Positions 4,527 through 36,037 of a stretch of 36,287 nt of DNA are shown here, one piece after another (position 1 is the stretch's first letter; each line of letters opens with the position of its first letter). Origin of the DNA: Treponema sp. (GTDB taxonomy: Bacteria > Spirochaetota > Spirochaetia > Treponematales > Breznakiellaceae); assembly GCA_031286095.1 (NCBI GenBank), contig JAITUY010000217.1, forward strand, positions 1-36,287, read 5' to 3'. Under the pieces are notes generated by a model. The model made no database searches and was not told the DNA's origin. It saw only the letters and a list, made by a program, of their open reading frames with translations. The translations under genes and the position numbers were made by a program.

Positions 4527-5243
4527 ATGGAATATGAATTTGAAGGAAAAACAGAAAAAGAGGCAATTGACAACGCGGCGAAAGAACTTGGTCTTGAAAA
4601 AGACGATTTTGACGTCGAGATTCTGGAAACCCAGAAAAACGGTCTTTTCAAGAAAGGCTTTGTACGAATAAGGGTTCATACGGGAAACACGCTTTCTTCA
4701 AGCGGTTTTTCAGGCAAGGATGAAACGGAAACGAGGCATAGAACCGGGACAAATAAGGCAATTTTCGGGGAGCCGGCGCCGCAAAATGAATTTGAAGAAA
4801 AAATGACGGAATTTACAACCGGCATTATCGAAAGAATGGGCTATCCCGGTAAAGTTACTGTTCTGTTCAGGGAGAAGCATAAGATTGGGATAAAAATCGA
4901 CTCCGAACATTCATCGATCCTGATTGGGAAAAAAGGCAAAAATCTTGATGCGCTACAGCTCTTGTTAAATATTTACGCCGGAAAGATAGGCAGGGACGAT
5001 ATGCGCGTAATCCTTGATACCGAAAATTACCGTATACGCAGGGAAGAATCCCTTGTGCGTCTTGCGTATAACGTAGCGGAAAAAGTACGCGAAAACAAAG
5101 ATTCCATTCTGCTTGAACCAATGAATCCATTTGACAGATGGCTTATCCATACAACATTAAATGATATAAATGATGTTGAAACCAAAAGCGAAGGAGATGG
5201 TTTATATAAACAGGTAAGGGTGTTTTACCGCGGATTAAAGTAA
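4527..5243 (+). CDS. jag: Jag/KhpB RNA-binding protein (Jag_N, KH, R3H)
   Basis: The protein is 238 aa. A Jag_N domain lies at residues 1-50 (EFEGKTEKEAIDNAAKELGL), followed by a polar linker. A KH domain lies at about 90-160, with GKKGKNLDALQLLLN as the GxxG-containing loop. An R3H domain lies at about 165-238 with the RxxxH core intact as RWLIH. Homologues bind RNA, often with KhpA, and link to cell elongation and division. AAGGAG sits upstream of ATG 4527. Placement directly after yidC is the classic order. The next gene starts one base after the stop codon. Confidence 0.93.
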   Translation: MEYEFEGKTEKEAIDNAAKELGLEKDDFDVEILETQKNGLFKKGFVRIRVHTGNTLSSSGFSGKDETETRHRTGTNKAIFGEPAPQNEFEEKMTEFTTGIIERMGYPGKVTVLFREKHKIGIKIDSEHSSILIGKKGKNLDALQLLLNIYAGKIGRDDMRVILDTENYRIRREESLVRLAYNVAEKVRENKDSILLEPMNPFDRWLIHTTLNDINDVETKSEGDGLYKQVRVFYRGLK

Positions 5244-6023
5244 ATGAAGCGCAGATTTGCTCTTTTAGTTTTATTCACTTTTGCTGTTTCCTGTGTTTTT
5301 TCAATCCCGCTTGAGGAACTGACAGGGGCTGAAAATGCCGCCCGTCTGCGTTCAGGCTCTGTTTCCGAAACGCAATTAGGAAAACCGGTGTTAAAATTAC
5401 TGCCTGTTTTGCCGGAATTACGGCAAATTGCCGCAGATTCCATGTCTTCCCTTGAGCCTACTGTAACGGTTGAAACTCTGTATCTTTATAAAAAACAAGA
5501 TTCCTCTTCTGCCTGGAACGACACACGGCGAGCGGCTTTATTCAATCAAATGCTGGCTATAAGCACGCTTACAGGAATTGAATATTTTTCCGCCAGCCGC
5601 AATAAAATGAGAACTTTTTACGAATATTCCGCCGTGATAGATGATCCTTCAACCAAAAAACCGCTGTCCGACCCCGTTTTTGAACAGCCTCCCGCCAAAT
5701 ATACGCTGTACGCAAGGCAAAAAGACCTTACTTTTGGCGATAATATCTACCGTTACGATTATACGGCGGCAAAAGACGCTTTATTTTTCATTCAGGAGAA
5801 TATAACCCCCCTTAATTACGGAATAATCACCGCTGTAGGCAAAAACAGACTAAAATCGGTATTGGCGGTAGTTGATTGCGGCGATTTTCTGTTAATTTAC
5901 GCCGTTTCCATGGCAAAAGCCGTATCTCTGCCCGGAATGACGGACAGGATAGGTAATTCTTTCAGAAACCGCGCGGACGCGGTCTATAAATGGTTTGTTT
6001 CAGGCGCTGATAAGGTTTTTTAG
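5244..6023 (+). CDS. Exported protein of unknown function, spirochaetal type
   Basis: The protein is 259 aa. Residues 1-22 (MKRRFALLVLFTFAVSCVFS) form a signal peptide, with a possible cleavage before IPLEE. The rest is mixed alpha/beta without repeats or metal motifs that I recognise. There are aromatic-rich strands such as FYEYSAVIDD and DNIYRYDYTA, and a final segment about a ~30-residue helix before WFVSGADKVF. ATG 5244 follows the jag TAA with no gap, so it is translationally coupled and last in that operon. Similar exported proteins exist in treponemes as far as I recall, but I cannot give a function. Confidence 0.75.
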   Translation: MKRRFALLVLFTFAVSCVFSIPLEELTGAENAARLRSGSVSETQLGKPVLKLLPVLPELRQIAADSMSSLEPTVTVETLYLYKKQDSSSAWNDTRRAALFNQMLAISTLTGIEYFSASRNKMRTFYEYSAVIDDPSTKKPLSDPVFEQPPAKYTLYARQKDLTFGDNIYRYDYTAAKDALFFIQENITPLNYGIITAVGKNRLKSVLAVVDCGDFLLIYAVSMAKAVSLPGMTDRIGNSFRNRADAVYKWFVSGADKVF

Positions 6024-24730: not shown

Positions 24731-25720
24731 ATGCCAAAACCACTTCAATACCGTACAGGTTCGCTTATATATTTTCAGGGAGACCCTGCGGATAAAATTT
24801 ATATTCTGCAAAACGGCAAAGTAAGCCTTGTTTCTCAGGATATAGAAACCGGGGAGGATATACGCGAATCGGTACAGCCGGGTGAATTCTTTGGAGTTAA
24901 GTCCGCGCTGGGACGTTATCCCCGCGAGGAAAACGCCATGGCGTTATCTGATACCAGTCTTATGGTCTTTACCGTACAAGAATTTGAAGCCGTAGCGATG
25001 GCAAATTCAAGAATTATTTTGAAAATGCTAAAGGTTTTTTCAAACCAGATGAGGCGCGTGCATAAACAGGTGTCAAAGCTGATGGCAAAGGAAGAAGAAC
25101 CGCCGGCCGACGGCTTGTTCGATATAGGTGAATTTTACCTTAAGAATAAACGGTTCTCGCAAGCCAAATATGTTTTCAGCCGCTATCTGATATATTATCC
25201 TTCCGGCAAGAACGCGTTTCAGGCGACAAAAAATCTTGAAATCGCGGAGAACGCGCTTTCCCGCTACGGAGACGGCAAAGGTCCAGGCGTTGCCGTAAGC
25301 GCGGGCGGGCCCCCGCCGCCTGCAGGCGGTTCCGCCATAGACAACCCTTCCAAAATTTACAATGACGCTATTATTCTTGTTTCGCATGGCAAATATCAGG
25401 AAGCGTTTATGTCGTTTAAATTGATAGTGGACTCCGGTGCGGATGCGGAATGGACGTCAAAAGCGGCGTATGAGATCGGGCGCTGTATGTTTATGATGAG
25501 CAAGTTTGACGACAGCCTGAAATATTTAACAAATGTGCTTACAAAATATCCGAAACATCCGAATCTTCTGGACGCCATGCTTGTTATTGGACAGTGCCAT
25601 GAAAAGATGGGCAGAAAAGATCAGGCGGCGGCTTTCTTTAAAAAAATTATTTCCATGGGTAGCAGTAATGACGGCACTACGGAAAAAGCAAAACGGGCGT
25701 TATTAGCCCTGGGAGCGTAA
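24731..25720 (+). CDS. Cyclic-nucleotide-binding domain fused to TPR repeats
   Basis: The protein is 329 aa. Residues 1-115 form a CNB beta-roll (GSLIYFQGDPADKIYILQNGKVSLV). The phosphate-binding cassette is altered: FGVKSALGRYPREENAMAL instead of FGE...PRSATA, losing the ribose-contact Glu and the Ser/Ala pair. No helix-turn-helix follows. Instead there is a TPR-like unit (FDIGEFYLKNKRFSQAKYVFSRYL), a Gly/Pro linker (GGPPPPAGGSA), and two or three further TPRs (KAAYEIGRCMFMMSKFDDSLKYL) as in YbgF/BamD-type scaffolds. It is probably a protein-protein adaptor, perhaps no longer nucleotide-binding. No signal peptide. Confidence 0.85.
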   Translation: MPKPLQYRTGSLIYFQGDPADKIYILQNGKVSLVSQDIETGEDIRESVQPGEFFGVKSALGRYPREENAMALSDTSLMVFTVQEFEAVAMANSRIILKMLKVFSNQMRRVHKQVSKLMAKEEEPPADGLFDIGEFYLKNKRFSQAKYVFSRYLIYYPSGKNAFQATKNLEIAENALSRYGDGKGPGVAVSAGGPPPPAGGSAIDNPSKIYNDAIILVSHGKYQEAFMSFKLIVDSGADAEWTSKAAYEIGRCMFMMSKFDDSLKYLTNVLTKYPKHPNLLDAMLVIGQCHEKMGRKDQAAAFFKKIISMGSSNDGTTEKAKRALLALGA

Positions 25721-25721
25721 A

Positions 25722-26372
25722 ATGGCTATGGATTTGGCCGCGTTTGGCCGTTTTTCACGGACATTTCAGCCGGGCGATATAATTTTCTCCGAGTATGAAC
25801 TTGGCGATACTTTTTACCTTATTCAGTCGGGAAGGGTACAGCTTGTAAAACTTGTCGGGGACATTGAGCGGACGCTTGATGTTTTACAGCCTTCCGAAAT
25901 GTTTGGCGAAATGGCGATTTTGGAAAATTCCCCACGTTCGGCGACCGCGATAGCGCTGGACGAAGTTAAGGTGCTGGAATTTAATTCCCAAAACTTTGAA
26001 ATTCTTTTGCTTGGCAACCCTCAAATTGCCCTGAAACTTTTAAAAATGTTCTGCAAACGTATTTACGATTCAAAACGGCGGTTTATGATTTTGACGCTTC
26101 CTGACTCGCAGACAAAAGTCGCCGACGTATTCCTTATGCTTGATGAAACAGGCGTCGATATAGATAAATCTACCGAGCGCCGCGAATTTAAAACTACTGT
26201 TGAAGGCGTAGCGCACTGGGCGGGAATGTCTGTAAATGAAGTAAGAGATGTTTTAGGTCATTATGTAAATCAACGGCGCGTGGAAATTTTCCCAGACTGT
26301 ATGGTTGTAAAAAATATAAATGATTTTGCCCGTTATGTAACTTCCCGCAGAAAAGACAGCAGAGGCCGTTAG
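25722..26372 (+). CDS. Crp/Fnr-family transcription regulator
   Basis: The protein is 216 aa. The N-terminal CNB roll has a canonical cassette FGEMAILENSPRSATAIAL, so cAMP or another cyclic nucleotide should bind. A long dimer helix follows (NPQIALKLLKMFCKRI). The C-terminal winged helix reads TTVEGVAHWAGMSVNEVRDVLGHYV. It lacks the Fnr cysteines. It starts one base after the stop of the CNB-TPR gene and ends at a hairpin terminator. Target promoters are not evident in this window. Confidence 0.92.
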   Translation: MAMDLAAFGRFSRTFQPGDIIFSEYELGDTFYLIQSGRVQLVKLVGDIERTLDVLQPSEMFGEMAILENSPRSATAIALDEVKVLEFNSQNFEILLLGNPQIALKLLKMFCKRIYDSKRRFMILTLPDSQTKVADVFLMLDETGVDIDKSTERREFKTTVEGVAHWAGMSVNEVRDVLGHYVNQRRVEIFPDCMVVKNINDFARYVTSRRKDSRGR

Positions 26373-29575: not shown

Positions 29576-30790
29576 TTATATTTCAACGTCCGCGTCGTAA
29601 TTAACGCCGGCAACATCAAAGCCGTGCGCCTCAAGGAAGTCGTGCTTAAAGCCCGCGACATCGGTTTGTGTAAAAACATTTTCCGGCGTTATGTTTTTCA
29701 TTTTTTCCATAGTCGCTTTTTGCACGTCTTCGCGCATCTCCCAGTCGTCAATGCGGATGCGCCCTTTGCGGTCAACGGGGACCATTTCAGGATCGCCACT
29801 TTCTGCTGAATACAGGCGTTCGCGGTAAAGCCGTACAATCTGCTCGATACAGCCTTCGTGAAGATGCATCTCTTTCATTACTTTGAACAGGCATGAAATG
29901 TAAAGGGGGATAATCGGAATTACCGCGCTTGAACGGGTAACAAGCGCCTTGTTTACGGAGACCCACGCGCCAGCGATTTTTCCTTGCTCTGCGTATATTT
30001 TATTGATTTCGACGCAGGCTCTTTCCAAATCTTCCTTCGCTTTTCCGATAGTGCCGTTTTTGTAAATCGGCCATGAATGTTCCGGTCCAAGATACGAATA
30101 AGCGACGGTTCTGGTTTTTGGGGAAAGTAAACCTTCTTTGTACAGCGCTTCCATCCAGTATTCCCAATCCTCGCCGCCCATAACTTTTATCGTGTTGTAG
30201 ATTTCATCTTCTGTAGCAGGTTCGGCGGATGTAACCGTAAAAGTTCCGTCCATCATGTTAAGGGTCTTGCCGGAAAAAGGTTCTCCCACAGGTTTAATCG
30301 CGGATTTATAAAGAATACCCGTCTTTGGGCAAGTCCTTACAGGGGAAGCGAGCGAATAAACAATTAAATCGATCTTCGGCTGTATCTTCGCCTCTTCTGC
30401 GGCAAGGCGAACTACCTTTGCCGTTTCCGCTTTTGTCTCGCCAAGAAAAGCGTTGCCGTCCAGAGTTTTGGAAATAAGTCCCGCCTTAGCCGCCTCGCGA
30501 TCAAACGCCTCGTTATTGTAATAACCCGGCGTGGCCGTGTGTTTGTCCGAAGCCGCTTTTTCTTTGGAAAGCCCAACCGTAACAGCGCCGTAACCAAACG
30601 CCGCGGCGATACGGCTTGCAAGCCCATAACCGTTTGAACAACCGATAACTAAAACAAGTTTTGGGGTTTTGTAATCGACTGGCGACAGATTTTTTTTCGC
30701 GTACTCAATTTGTCTTTGCACAGACACGGTACAACCGGTAGGGTGGCTGTTCAGACAGATGTTGTTTCGAACCATTGGTTTTATGATCAT
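29576..30790 (-). CDS. fabV: Enoyl-ACP/trans-2-enoyl-CoA reductase, FabV/TER type
   Basis: It reduces the trans-2 double bond with NADH as the last step of each elongation cycle. The 404-aa length and sequence fit the FabV/TER family, of which the Treponema denticola enzyme is a known member. VLVIGCSNGYGLASRIAAAFG is the NAD site, and PIYKNGTIGKAKEDLE holds the Tyr-X8-Lys catalytic pair. It is the last gene of the fab operon and abuts fabZ with no gap, so in this organism it probably serves fatty-acid synthesis as well as, or instead of, crotonyl-CoA reduction. No FabI or FabK is in the operon. Confidence 0.96.
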   Translation of the reverse strand: MIIKPMVRNNICLNSHPTGCTVSVQRQIEYAKKNLSPVDYKTPKLVLVIGCSNGYGLASRIAAAFGYGAVTVGLSKEKAASDKHTATPGYYNNEAFDREAAKAGLISKTLDGNAFLGETKAETAKVVRLAAEEAKIQPKIDLIVYSLASPVRTCPKTGILYKSAIKPVGEPFSGKTLNMMDGTFTVTSAEPATEDEIYNTIKVMGGEDWEYWMEALYKEGLLSPKTRTVAYSYLGPEHSWPIYKNGTIGKAKEDLERACVEINKIYAEQGKIAGAWVSVNKALVTRSSAVIPIIPLYISCLFKVMKEMHLHEGCIEQIVRLYRERLYSAESGDPEMVPVDRKGRIRIDDWEMREDVQKATMEKMKNITPENVFTQTDVAGFKHDFLEAHGFDVAGVNYDADVEI

Positions 30791-31210
30791 TTATGAATTC
30801 CCCACCAGACACATCCATTCCGCCTCGGCGGCGACTTCATCGCCGACATAGGCTATCCCGGATTGCTTGATCATCTTCGGTGAAACCCGAAGATTTGTAA
30901 TTTCACTGCGGACTTCGTCGCCCGGGCGAACCTGACGGCGGAACTTTACCTTGTCTACTGTCGCAAAAAAGAAAAGCGAATCTTCGCCGAGAACGCCGCA
31001 TTTGCGTAAGCCCGCGCCGCCTGACTGAGCCATTGTTTCGACAAGAATCACTCCCGGTACGACTGGGTATTCGGGGAAATGTCCCTTAAAAAAATATTCT
31101 TTTTCAGTAAAGACGCGCTTTGCGATAATTTTTTCTTTGTCCGCTTGAATAATTTCGTCCACAAACAAAAAGGGATCGCGGTGCGGTAAAAGATTTTCGA
31201 TTTCGTTCAT
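30791..31210 (-). CDS. fabZ: 3-hydroxyacyl-ACP dehydratase FabZ
   Basis: It removes water from 3-hydroxyacyl-ACP. The protein is 139 aa, the standard hot-dog fold length. LLPHRDPFLFVDEI, then the catalytic segment GHFPEYPVVPGVILVETMAQ with His and, two turns on, Glu. AAGGA lies upstream of ATG 31210. Its stop is adjacent to the fabV start. Confidence 0.97.
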   Translation of the reverse strand: MNEIENLLPHRDPFLFVDEIIQADKEKIIAKRVFTEKEYFFKGHFPEYPVVPGVILVETMAQSGGAGLRKCGVLGEDSLFFFATVDKVKFRRQVRPGDEVRSEITNLRVSPKMIKQSGIAYVGDEVAAEAEWMCLVGNS

Positions 31211-31223
31211 AATTATTCCTTAT

Positions 31224-32495
31224 TTAACCTTTGTACTTTTTGAAAACAATTACGCCGTTATGTCCGCCGAAGCCCAGCGAACCGGAAGCGGCGGCGTTGA
31301 TTTCGCCGTACTGAACTTTGTTCGGCACATAATCAAGATCACATTCAGGATCAGGATTGTCCAAGTTGATAGTCGGAGGGAAAAAGCCTTCGTTGATTGC
31401 GAGAATACAGGCGATGGCTTCCAGTCCGCCGCCGCCGGCGACACAATGACCGTGCATGCTCTTGGTACTGGAAACTTTTAGCTTGTACGCGTGATCGCCG
31501 AAAGCGAGTTTAAGCATCTTTGTTTCGGTAGGATCGTTTATTTCGGTAGAAGTGCCGTGCGCGTTGTAATACTGTATGTCCTCAGGTTTTAAATCCGCAT
31601 CCGCTATCGCTTTTTTTACAGCAGTCGAACCGCCCATGCCCGTTGGGTCTGGGGAAGTAATATGGTACGCGTCCGCGCTTGCTCCGTATCCGGCGAACTC
31701 GGCGTATATTTTCGCGCCGCGTTTTTTCGCGCTTTCTTCGCTTTCAAGAATTAAAATGCCGGAACCTTCTCCCATTACAAACCCGTCGCGGTCGGCGTCG
31801 AAAGGACGGGACGCTTTTGTCGGTTCGTTACAACGTTTTGTGGAGAGCGCTTTTAGCATCTGGAAACCGCCGATGGCAAAAGGAACAATAGTCGCCTCCG
31901 TGCCGCCTGAAATAATTATATCACAGCGGCCGGAGCGGATAAGATCGAGCGCTTGCCCCATAGCGTCAGTACCGGCGGCGCAGGCGGTAACCTGCGTATA
32001 GGCCGGTCCCTTTGTGCCGTACATCATTGAGATATTTCCAGCGGCCTCGTTGGGAATCATCATCGGCACTGTAAGCGGCAACATTCGTTTCGGACCGTCG
32101 TTAAAAAGCTTTTTGTGAGATTCGCCAACAACTTCAAACCCGCCGATACCGTTTCCAAGAACAATACCGATAATATTCGGATCGCAGTTTACAGTTCTTT
32201 TGCCTTCGGCGTCAGGCGCGCCAAGGAGCTTGGCGTCTTCTAAAGCCTGAGACGCCGCCGCTACAGCGAATTGGGTAAAGCGGCACATTTTGCGCGCTTC
32301 TTTTTTATCCATATACAAAGAAGGATCAAAATCTTTTACCTCGCCCGCGATTGTTACATCATAGCCGGTAGTGTCAAAAGAGGTGATAGGACCGATTCCG
32401 CTTTTTCCCGCTTTAAGACTTGCGCCAAATTCCTCAACGGATTTACCAATGCATGAAATTGCGCCCATTCCGGTTACAACAACTTTCTTTTTCAT
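31224..32495 (-). CDS. fabF: 3-oxoacyl-ACP synthase II
   Basis: It condenses malonyl-ACP with the growing acyl-ACP. The protein is 423 aa. The KAS triad is visible: Cys in VTACAAGTDAMG, His in YYNAHGTSTEIND and His in STKSMHGHCVAGGG. The usual TGH around the second His is HGH and the Gly-rich loop is CVAGGG rather than LLGAAG, a family variant. AGGAG before ATG 32495. Confidence 0.97.
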   Translation of the reverse strand: MKKKVVVTGMGAISCIGKSVEEFGASLKAGKSGIGPITSFDTTGYDVTIAGEVKDFDPSLYMDKKEARKMCRFTQFAVAAASQALEDAKLLGAPDAEGKRTVNCDPNIIGIVLGNGIGGFEVVGESHKKLFNDGPKRMLPLTVPMMIPNEAAGNISMMYGTKGPAYTQVTACAAGTDAMGQALDLIRSGRCDIIISGGTEATIVPFAIGGFQMLKALSTKRCNEPTKASRPFDADRDGFVMGEGSGILILESEESAKKRGAKIYAEFAGYGASADAYHITSPDPTGMGGSTAVKKAIADADLKPEDIQYYNAHGTSTEINDPTETKMLKLAFGDHAYKLKVSSTKSMHGHCVAGGGGLEAIACILAINEGFFPPTINLDNPDPECDLDYVPNKVQYGEINAAASGSLGFGGHNGVIVFKKYKG

Positions 32496-32504
32496 TTTCT
32501 TCTC

Positions 32505-33239
32505 CTAAAAATACATTCCGCCATCTACGGGCAATACTTGCCCGGTAATATATGAAGAATCGTCGGACGCGAAAAAGAGCGCCGCCCGCGCGACATCTTC
32601 CTGTTTTCCCGTCCTCTTCATGGGGATAACCTCGGTCATTTTCTTTCTTGCTTCTTCCGGGACAGCCGCCGTCATGTCGGATTCGATATAGCCGGGCGCT
32701 AGGGCGTTTACGCGCACTCCTCGGCTTGCCACTTCGTTGGCAAGACTCTTTGTTACGCCGATTAAACCCGCCTTGCTTGCGGAATAATTTGCCTGCCCGC
32801 CGTTGCCGTGGATACCGACGACGCTCGCCATGTTGATAATTGATCCTGTACGTTTGCGGATCATATCCCTTGCCACGGTGCGGGCGACAAAGAACGCCGC
32901 GGAAAGGTTAATATCAAGAACCTTCTGCCATTCTTCCAAAGACATTCTGAAAGAAAGATTGTCCTTTGTGATTCCAGCATTGTTGACAAGTATGTCAAAA
33001 CCATCGGCTTCCTTTACGGCGCTTTCGATTACACCGTCGATTTCCGCCGTCTTGGAAAGATCAAGTTGAACCCAGTGGAGTTTCCCTTTTGCCGCCGAAA
33101 CCCTGTCGGAAAGGTCTTCCGGCGTTTTATAATCCAGACCCCAAACTTCCGCTCCTTCCGCGATAAATAAATCGGTTATTGTTTTTCCGATTCCTCTTAG
33201 CGCTCCGGTAATAAGCGCCTTTTTATTTTCAAGCCTCAT
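32505..33239 (-). CDS. fabG: 3-oxoacyl-ACP reductase FabG
   Basis: This NADPH-dependent SDR reduces the 3-keto group. It is 244 aa from ATG 33239, fixed by GGAGG five to nine bases upstream; the ATG at 33257 in the track lies in a hairpin. ITGALRGIGKTI is the cofactor loop, LVNNAGI follows, and YSASKAGLIG holds the Tyr-x3-Lys pair, with Ser in NMASVVG. It ends VLPVDGGMYF, typical of FabG. Confidence 0.96.
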   Translation of the reverse strand: MRLENKKALITGALRGIGKTITDLFIAEGAEVWGLDYKTPEDLSDRVSAAKGKLHWVQLDLSKTAEIDGVIESAVKEADGFDILVNNAGITKDNLSFRMSLEEWQKVLDINLSAAFFVARTVARDMIRKRTGSIINMASVVGIHGNGGQANYSASKAGLIGVTKSLANEVASRGVRVNALAPGYIESDMTAAVPEEARKKMTEVIPMKRTGKQEDVARAALFFASDDSSYITGQVLPVDGGMYF

Positions 33240-33256
33240 GCTTCCTCCAATTACCA

Positions 33257-33273
33257 TCTGCCTTTTAGGCAGA
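33257..33273 (-). other. Hairpin just upstream of the fabG ribosome-binding site
   Basis: TCTGCC, a 5-nt loop and GGCAGA make a perfect 6-bp stem in the 82-bp gap between fabD and fabG, by far the largest gap in the operon. It ends about 9 nt before GGAGG. No U-run follows, so it is more likely an mRNA-processing or stability element than a terminator. Confidence 0.45.
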
Positions 33274-33321: not shown

Positions 33322-34287
33322 TTAACTGCCTATTTTTCCAGTATCTTCAACAGTACCCGCAAGGTAGCAGGGTATTTCCCCTACTGTCACCGAATCGCGC
33401 CAAAGCCCCTGAAGAACCTTGCCAGGCCCTACTTCAAGACAGGCTGACGCGCCAATTTCCGCGATAGAGGCTTCTTCCTCTACCCAGCGGACGGGGCTTG
33501 TAATTTGCTGTAGGGCGAGTTTTTTCGCCTCTGCGCCGGAAGAAACTTTTTTTCCAGTAACGTTTGAAAAAAGCGCCACAGTAGGATCGTTGAATGTTAT
33601 GGTTTCAAGTACCGGCGCAAAGATTTCCGCTGACTGCGCCATAAGCGGCGAATGGAAGGGACCTGCCACTTGCAGGCGTATAACCCTTTTCGCGCCCGCT
33701 GATTTAAAACGTGTTTCCGCTTCGGTTAAGGCAGACGCCGTTCCGCTGACTACCAGCTGTTTCGGCGAATTGATATTTGCCGCGTAAAGGTCTTTTAATC
33801 CTTCCGCGCTCCATTTTGCGATTAGTTCTTCAACCTCTTTGGGGGCAAGCCCTACGACAGCGGACATACCCGGCGCGGCTGTAGCGTCCCCGCCGCACTC
33901 TTCGCGCAGACGGTCAGAATTTTTTTGCATTGCTTCGCCTCTGGCTTTTATCAGGCGGAAGCAGTCGGCGGCTGTAATTACGCCGCTTAAAACAAGCGCA
34001 GAATATTCGCCCAGACTGAATCCGGCGCACGCGGCGGGACTGTACCCCTGTTCGCCCAAGTATGCCGCCGCAGAAAGATTAGCGAGGGTGATCGCCGGCT
34101 GGGAAACATCGGTGCGTTTTAACGTGTCCGCATCTGACGCAAGAAGAGCCTTCATGTCCTTTCCGTTGATTTCATCTGCCGTATCAAACAATGCTTTTAC
34201 AGCGGAGGAAGAAAGAAAATCGTGCGCCATGCCGGAATATTGCGCCCCCTGACCTGGAAACAAGTAAACTACATTTTTTTTATCCAT
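33322..34287 (-). CDS. fabD: Malonyl-CoA--ACP transacylase
   Basis: It loads malonyl onto ACP. The protein is 321 aa. LFPGQGAQYSGM is the oxyanion Gln region, CAGFSLGEYSALV contains the catalytic Ser in GFSLG where GHSLG is commonest, KARGEAM has the carboxylate-binding Arg and VAGPFHSPLM the catalytic His. AGGAG precedes ATG 34287. It follows fabH after 10 bp. Confidence 0.96.
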   Translation of the reverse strand: MDKKNVVYLFPGQGAQYSGMAHDFLSSSAVKALFDTADEINGKDMKALLASDADTLKRTDVSQPAITLANLSAAAYLGEQGYSPAACAGFSLGEYSALVLSGVITAADCFRLIKARGEAMQKNSDRLREECGGDATAAPGMSAVVGLAPKEVEELIAKWSAEGLKDLYAANINSPKQLVVSGTASALTEAETRFKSAGAKRVIRLQVAGPFHSPLMAQSAEIFAPVLETITFNDPTVALFSNVTGKKVSSGAEAKKLALQQITSPVRWVEEEASIAEIGASACLEVGPGKVLQGLWRDSVTVGEIPCYLAGTVEDTGKIGS

Positions 34288-34297
34288 TTTTATACTC

Positions 34298-35329
34298 CTA
34301 CCAAATTATTATATTTCCTCCGTAGGTAAGACCTCCGCCAAAACCTACGGTTAAGATTAAATCGCCTTTTTTCAACAGACCTTTTCTGTTCATTTCATCT
34401 AACGCGATTGGAATTGACGCCGAAGACGTGTTGGCGTATTCCTCTATGTTAAGATAAAACTTTTCAAGCGGTATACGCAGGCGTTTTGCCGCCGCCTGAA
34501 CAATCCGCGCGTTAGCCTGATGAGGAACAATCCGCGCAATTTCATCAATGTTGATTCCGCCCTCTTTTATAAGAGCGTTTATTGTGTCTGTTACCGCTTT
34601 TACGGCAAAGTTATATACCTCTTGTCCGTTCATCTCGATAACGATTGATTTTTCCAAAGTTTCCCCCGCTTTAAACGGGTTGCGCGTTCCCCCTCTTCGT
34701 TCAATCAGGCTCTCATAACCGGAACCGTCCGCGAACAAAAGTGTCTGCAAAAGACCGCTTTTACTGTTGTCAGTTTTTTCAAGCACCACCGCGCCTGCGC
34801 CATCCCCGAACAGAACGCAGGTTCCCCTGTCATTCCAGTCCGCCATTTTGGTTAAAATTTCCGAACCCAATACCAAAGCGCGTTTTCGTTTTGAACTGAC
34901 GCTTAAAAGCCCCGCGGCAGTTTCCAGCCCGTAAACAAACCCGGTGCATGCCGCTGAAATGTCCATGGCGGCGGCGTTTACCGCCCCAATTTTATGCTGA
35001 ACAACGCAGGCGGTAGAAGGTGTCCCAAAATAATCCGCCGTAACCGTCGCAATAACGATAAGGTCTATACTGAGCGCCGTTTGAGCCGCGGCTCTGTCTC
35101 TTTCCGCGGAATCCTGTCCGGTGTAGCCCGCTACCATGGCAAGGGCGTTTTTTGCCGCCTCTGCCGCAAGATCGCTACAAGCGGTGTTTTCGTCCGCGAT
35201 ATAGCGGCTGGCAATCCCTGTATGAGACCTTATCCACTCATCGCTGGTGTCGATACGAGTTGCCAAATCGTCGTTGGTAACCCTTTTCTGCGGTATTGCC
35301 TTCCCTGTTCCAATAATTTCAATTGCCAT
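34298..35329 (-). CDS. fabH: 3-oxoacyl-ACP synthase III
   Basis: It starts fatty-acid synthesis by condensing acetyl-CoA (or a branched acyl-CoA) with malonyl-ACP. The protein is 343 aa. ISAACTGFVYGLE holds the catalytic Cys, IVPHQANARI the His, and EEYANTSSASIPIAL the Asn. An insert around residues 65-85 (AGYTGQDSAERDRAAAQTAL) makes it about 20 residues longer than E. coli FabH. It is the first gene of the operon. ATG 35329 lies 9 nt past a strong palindrome, with only AAAGAAA as a weak ribosome-binding site. Confidence 0.97.
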   Translation of the reverse strand: MAIEIIGTGKAIPQKRVTNDDLATRIDTSDEWIRSHTGIASRYIADENTACSDLAAEAAKNALAMVAGYTGQDSAERDRAAAQTALSIDLIVIATVTADYFGTPSTACVVQHKIGAVNAAAMDISAACTGFVYGLETAAGLLSVSSKRKRALVLGSEILTKMADWNDRGTCVLFGDGAGAVVLEKTDNSKSGLLQTLLFADGSGYESLIERRGGTRNPFKAGETLEKSIVIEMNGQEVYNFAVKAVTDTINALIKEGGINIDEIARIVPHQANARIVQAAAKRLRIPLEKFYLNIEEYANTSSASIPIALDEMNRKGLLKKGDLILTVGFGGGLTYGGNIIIW

Positions 35330-35338
35330 TTTCTTTAT

Positions 35339-35365
35339 TATGACAAAATTTGAATATTTGTCATA
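35339..35365. promoter_or_regulatory. Palindromic operator at the start of the fab operon
   Basis: TATGACAAA (35339-35347), a 9-bp AT spacer and TTTGTCATA (35357-35365): perfect 9-bp arms. It covers the predicted transcription start (about 35364) and the whole leader up to 9 nt before fabH. It does not match the FapR, FabT, FabR or FadR sites I know. The same sequence could form a 5' RNA stem. Confidence 0.7.
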
Positions 35366-35370
35366 CTCCT

Positions 35371-35399
35371 ATTATTTAGATTTTTTTCTCTATTGTCAA
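35371..35399 (-). promoter_or_regulatory. Fab operon promoter
   Basis: On the minus strand a perfect TTGACA (35394-35399), a 17-bp spacer and AATAAT (35371-35376; 5/6). The start would be near 35364, inside the first arm of the palindrome. Confidence 0.7.
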
Positions 35400-35424
35400 G
35401 TTATTTTTTGACCCAAAAAAGGGC

Positions 35425-35448
35425 TTTTGGTTGCGAATTTAACCAAAA
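35425..35448. terminator. 8-bp AT-rich hairpin upstream of the fab promoter
   Basis: TTTTGGTT (35425-35432), 8-nt loop, AACCAAAA (35441-35448). It could end transcription coming from the right before the fab promoter, but GC content is low. A smaller CCC-AAAAAA-GGG lies next to it at about 35412-35423. Confidence 0.35.
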
Positions 35449-35873: not shown

Positions 35874-36037
35874 AGAGCCTATCCTGTTTTTTGTGTAAAT
35901 GAAAATCTCGATTTTTTTCCCATTACCATTTACACAAAATTTATGATAAGTCTAGTAGGAAAACTGCTGGAAATTTGATATTTCAAAAAGTAAAGAAAAA
36001 TGGAAAATCTATTTACACAAAAAACAGGATAGGCTCT
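35874..36037. mobile_element. 164-bp MITE-like element with 27-bp perfect inverted ends
   Basis: The ends AGAGCCTATCCTGTTTTTTG (first 20 of 27, 35874-35900) and their exact inverse at 36011-36037 enclose 110 bp with no ORF. A third copy of ATTTACACAAAA lies inside at 35928-35939. TTTACACAAA ends recall IS256-family elements, from memory only. No clear target duplication was found. The right arm encodes the last codons of a truncated gene. Confidence 0.75.

Follow-up and report, generated by a model that had tools for sequence, protein, structure and literature searches.

In this work we have examined the region upstream of the fatty-acid synthesis (fab) operon in a 36,287-nucleotide stretch of Treponema sp. 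DNA (contig JAITUY010000217.1), referred to as the window, where a perfect palindrome, O1, precedes the first gene. The operon lies on the minus strand and runs from 35329 down to 29576 in the order fabH-fabD-fabG-fabF-fabZ-fabV. Its first and last genes, fabH (34298-35329; beta-ketoacyl-acyl carrier protein (ACP) synthase III) and fabV (29576-30790; enoyl-ACP reductase), are recognized by the NCBIfam models TIGR00747 (333.9 bits, cut-off 292.1) and NF043048 (488.7 bits, cut-off 400), respectively. The open reading frame (ORF) of fabD (33322-34287; malonyl-CoA:ACP transacylase) matches a FabD query, and those of fabG (32505-33257; ketoacyl-ACP reductase), fabF (31224-32495; ketoacyl-ACP synthase II) and fabZ (30791-31210; hydroxyacyl-ACP dehydratase) were assigned by reading and synteny. 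A preliminary description of this DNA had reported a TTGACA-17-AATAAT promoter followed by a palindrome with perfect 9-bp arms, and both are indeed found on the minus strand. The -35 element TTGACA (35394-35399), kept in nearly all relatives, and the -10 element AATAAT (35371-35376), conserved in its aligned position, are 17 bp apart. O1, TATGACAAA-N9-TTTGTCATA, occupies 35339-35365; its 9-bp arms (35339-35347 and 35357-35365) match each other without a mismatch across a 9-bp spacer, its core TGACAAA-N9-TTTGTCA spans 35341-35363, and 9 bp separate it from the fabH ATG at 35329. Judged from the promoter, the transcription start is predicted to fall under O1. Between the -10 element and O1 lies AGGAG (35366-35370), which may be a promoter discriminator or a Shine-Dalgarno-like element and which is present, exactly or as a close variant, in most relatives.

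Is this palindrome more than an accident of one promoter? FabH was found in 35 of the 40 genomes of our genus sample, and the 35 upstream regions were read, with O1 counted as present when at least 11 of the 14 core arm bases were kept around a 9-bp spacer just 5' of the start codon. Twenty-six regions have it, with all 14 core arm bases kept in 15, and such a recurrence, in which palindrome, spacer and position are all retained, makes O1 more than chance. Absence from orthologous fab promoters had been named beforehand as an observation that would refute a regulatory site; these promoters carry the palindrome across the genus, and it extends to further genera and families of the order. A second operator position, O2 (35376-35398, minus strand), lies over the -35 element and the promoter spacer. 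In the window it is decayed (TGACAATagagaaaaaAATCTAA, 9 of 14 arm bases), and in many relatives it is close to TGACAAA-N9-TTTGTAA or its variant ending in TTA. Because the left arm of O2 is in part the -35 element itself, the evidence for this position is limited to its right arm and its spacing. In three genomes (G008, G043 and G002) O1 is absent and O2 alone is retained. The tandem layout recurs in other genera of the window's own family (G081, G140, G112 and G127), in some cases with a 10-bp O1 spacer. When the exact core was sought in the 40 genus genomes with spacers of 5 to 13 bp, 31 sites had 9 bp, six had 10 bp and seven had any of the remaining lengths, so that the 9-bp spacing is strongly preferred. 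It could be argued that such palindromes are chance products or by-products of TTGACA-rich promoters, since -35 elements give rise to TTGACAAA halves and some of the matches across genomes lie at unrelated genes; the window's own genome has three more exact core matches, not obviously by fatty-acid genes. We regard this explanation as practically negligible, as it is already contradicted by the conservation across genera, to which the fixed spacing and a coherent set of targets are to be added.

The arms with their 9-bp spacer were found before other fatty-acid genes as well. In the genus, the motif also stands 5' of accD, acyl-CoA ligase, GH3-like, bioY and rpmF-acpP genes. The relaxed form WTGACAWW-N9-WWTGTCAW, sought in 20 genomes belonging to a second family of the order, gave 60 matches, against 10 for a reversed control. 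Of 58 distinct, exactly matching sites in these genomes, 49 precede fab genes (fabD 14, fabV 5, fabF 3, fabH 2 and fabZ 1), carboxyltransferase (8) or acyl-CoA/AMP ligase (11) genes, the gene of an outer-membrane protein (2) or a methyltransferase-tetR operon (3) described below; as the target list was partly drawn from the same loci, the 49 describe a coherent target set and are not a blind test. The fab genes by themselves account for 25 of the 58. In additional genomes of the two families, 11 of the 23 sites that were read lie at listed targets. Pfam confirms the target ligases, carboxyltransferase, GH3, BioY and ACP and has no match for the outer-membrane protein. Several fatty-acid operons of one genome, and those of different genera, thus share a site, and by comparison of sequences at least two families of the order have a fatty-acid regulon marked by TGACAWW-N9-WWTGTCA. 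In one genome (L459, G128:C5:43662) the motif also lies 9 bp 5' of a gene which by reading resembles an acyl-ACP thioesterase and is likely a further target.

Could the inverted repeat act as RNA rather than as DNA? A 5' mRNA hairpin, for instance one folding between AGGAG and the fabH start codon and setting translation, had been mentioned as an alternative. The stem in the window has a moderate stability (-8.1 kcal/mol, z -2.15), and AGGAG is strongly conserved, directly 3' of the -10 element and immediately 5' of the palindrome. In the three genomes that lack O1, the distance between AGGAG and the fabH ATG is about 10 nt, and AGGAG may there serve as a Shine-Dalgarno sequence too. However, among the 26 O1 sites of the genus there are 19 deviating arm pairs, of which 14 are broken, three are wobble pairs and only two are compensatory. 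The changes are mostly one-sided, not the compensatory stem changes that would mark a structured RNA leader, and this speaks for an operator in the DNA rather than a hairpin in the RNA. Moreover, the same letters are found at further genes, where their distance to the start codon varies, AGGAG would lie upstream of the predicted +1, and an Rfam search at the O1 site returned no family. Taken together, control by a hairpin appears very improbable. An 8-codon leader ORF, the other alternative proposed, can be read in the window; we rejected it because its stop is not conserved among relatives, the TCA-TAA ending being missing in, for example, G010, G019, G041, G051 and G053.

Which protein might read the site? 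Where the fab operons of relatives were inspected, no neighbouring regulator gene was seen. Our candidate is a TetR-family protein whose gene, in the window's own genome (G000:C263, about 1577-2170), lies directly 3' of a gene for an RlmL-like 23S rRNA methyltransferase. The latter resembles the RlmL half of RlmKL, with a score under the cut-off of that model. The two genes are paired in 18 of the 18 genomes compared, the window's own included, and orthologues of the TetR are spread across the order, the nearest relatives of the protein being found in Treponema metagenome-assembled genomes, presumably of termite-gut origin. The candidate matches Pfam PF00440, the N-terminal TetR helix-turn-helix, with 49.5 bits (cut-off 24). 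The motif stands 5' of the methyltransferase-tetR operon itself in four genomes, namely G074, G109, G130 and G078, in the last of which one base of an arm is degenerate. The predicted structure has a pLDDT (predicted local distance difference test) of 92.3, and a fold search placed B. subtilis FadR at the top (E 9.1e-8, template modelling (TM) score 0.73), with the FadR proteins of C. perfringens, B. halodurans, an archaeon and Thermus also listed. Sequence searches agree on the FadR relatives, and among the structures closest in sequence and fold is that of B. subtilis FadR with stearoyl-CoA. Three orthologues score 55.7, 56.8 and 42.6 bits against the NCBIfam FadR family NF053878, below its cut-off of 200 bits. 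On the predicted model, the candidate looks like a TetR-type fatty-acid repressor outside the NCBIfam FadR family. Because of the resemblance to FadR, we propose by analogy that the ligand would be an acyl-CoA or another acyl-thioester.

The candidate gene and the operators also tend to be missing together. In one genus (g3) the TetR orthologue is missing in all five genomes; the methyltransferase gene has no tetR behind it in the four of them that were opened, nor in G069, G137 and G104. No operator was found before fabH or fabD in the three g3 genomes read or in G029 and G101, and none at fabH in G069 and G137; G104 has no FabD match. The three g3 motif matches do not lie at any listed target. 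In the second family, TetR-negative genomes have 0.6 motif matches per genome and TetR-positive ones 2.96; in the own family the figures are 0 and 2.0. The corresponding P values, 0.002 and 0.01, were calculated as if genomes were independent, which they are not, and are indicative only. Two genomes, G077 and G120, were excluded from these statistics. Some lineages have thus apparently lost tetR and its putative operators together.

From the element, its conservation, its fixed spacing, its target set and its co-occurrence with tetR, all of which are directly observed, we infer binding by this TetR and repression. We hypothesize, with a probability of roughly 0.8, that a fatty-acid regulon extends across the order, that the palindrome is its operator and that the methyltransferase-linked TetR repressor reads it. 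The repressor, encoded elsewhere on the chromosome than the fab operon, would bind TGACAWW-N9-WWTGTCA as one dimer or as two. In front of fabH, O1 would cover the predicted +1 and roughly the first 25 bp of the transcript, and O2 would in most relatives overlie the spacer between the -35 and -10 elements; with this placement over start and promoter, a bound protein would block RNA polymerase. The effect of the ligand may be either release or tightening of the TetR.

Several observations weigh against this interpretation. The regulator survey covered the TetR family only, by a TetR_N search of 20 genomes. No operator was found 5' of the methyltransferase-tetR pair in the own genus, so that signs of autoregulation are limited to some genomes of the second family. 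The losses of TetR are few and not fully independent. G077 and G120 have fabH operators and lack both tetR and the methyltransferase gene; as the latter is missing too, an assembly gap is likely, though unproven. The reverse is seen in G066, where the TetR is present with zero motif matches, and in two further families (f4 and f5), where the orthologue is retained and the exact motif is almost absent. Two f4 genomes (G035 and G091; L161 and L163) carry, 5' of fabD, the palindrome TTACA-N13-TGTAA, a symmetrical variant with the same geometry as the operator. As a sister operator it is suggestive only; perhaps the specificity has shifted there, although the recognition helices look much alike. 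It may be that the operator is real and is read by another protein, either a different TetR or a MarR-, HrcA- or FapR-like regulator. The near absence of the exact motif in f4 and f5 would fit such a protein, and the 9-9-9 geometry resembles that of the HrcA/CIRCE site, the sequence and targets of which differ. We nevertheless consider another reader unlikely, on a survey limited to the TetR family, given the motif 5' of the methyltransferase-tetR operon in four genomes, the matching losses of tetR and operator and the FadR-like predicted fold of the candidate. The wider proposal, that one methyltransferase-linked TetR globally controls the synthesis and activation of fatty acids and the supply of biotin in the whole order, acting at an unusual 23-25 bp operator that is often doubled over the promoter and co-lost in some lineages, seems to us reasonably probable.

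Three other leads were set aside. A tandem TetR fusion of about 400 aa with two TetR_N domains at first had a similar distribution; it was rejected, as its neighbours are efflux genes of the TolC-like and membrane-fusion kinds and no operator lies close to it. The fusion (L255-L269, e.g. G000:C188, about 4680-5906) lies beside efflux genes in most genomes looked at and is possibly a single-chain repressor forming a covalent pseudo-dimer. XRE-type genes near some one-mismatch sites were inconsistent. The NikR site, GTATGA-N16-TCATAC, looks similar, but its spacing is off by one and its targets do not fit.

Among known systems, the FadR proteins of B. subtilis and B. halodurans and the C. perfringens homologue are like the candidate in TetR family membership, a near full-length sequence match, predicted fold and fatty-acid theme. 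B. subtilis-type FadR regulates mainly degradation genes through a shorter operator, whereas the putative targets of the candidate are synthesis and activation genes and its operator would be TGACAWW-N9-WWTGTCA. The sites of FapR, FabT, E. coli FadR and FabR are presumably dissimilar to O1, as judged by their consensus sequences. FapR is not a member of the TetR family. It represses the fatty-acid and phospholipid regulon of Bacillus and Staphylococcus from inverted repeats within or just 3' of promoters (PMC5052256), a layout that the putative O1 repressor system would share. Thermus thermophilus FadR is also a TetR-family fatty-acid regulator; its 15-bp site TTRNACYNRGTNYAA (PMC5597230) differs from the present operator of 23-25 bp. 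FasR of Mycobacterium tuberculosis, an acyl-CoA-sensing TetR-family protein, controls fatty-acid synthesis via inverted repeats (PMC7382501). FasR activates the type I fatty-acid synthase, whereas the site described here lies on and after the promoter of a type II operon, as would suit a repressor. The preliminary description had suggested an unfamiliar repressor site for a spirochaete-specific lipid regulator; the comparison supports such a site and names a candidate TetR for it, and the restriction to spirochaetes was examined within the order only. Our literature searches for a fatty-acid or lipid regulator in treponemes found none described, and genome comparison points to the candidate TetR as a previously undescribed fatty-acid switch. 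If this is true, the order has a lipid regulon with a defined operator and a candidate gene for its regulator, and a single purified protein and a single promoter fragment suffice to test how membrane fatty-acid synthesis is controlled. Lineages in which regulator and operators were apparently lost together would be a natural experiment in the loss of a global lipid repressor.

The window has some further features. A second conserved block, GCAACC-N16/18-GTGTCAAAA, lies 5' of the fabH -35 element in most relatives (about 35407-35440 in the window, where it reads GGGTCAAAA) and is possibly part of a divergent promoter. An element at about 35874-36037 with terminal inverted repeats (GAGCCTATCCTGTTTTTTGTGTAAAT ... 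ATTTACACAAAAAACAGGATAGGCTC), to which Rfam gave only sub-threshold and probably spurious matches, looks like a miniature inverted-repeat transposable element or an insertion-sequence remnant. Finally, two neighbouring Crp/Fnr-like cyclic-nucleotide-binding proteins, recognized by reading, are encoded at 24731-26372.
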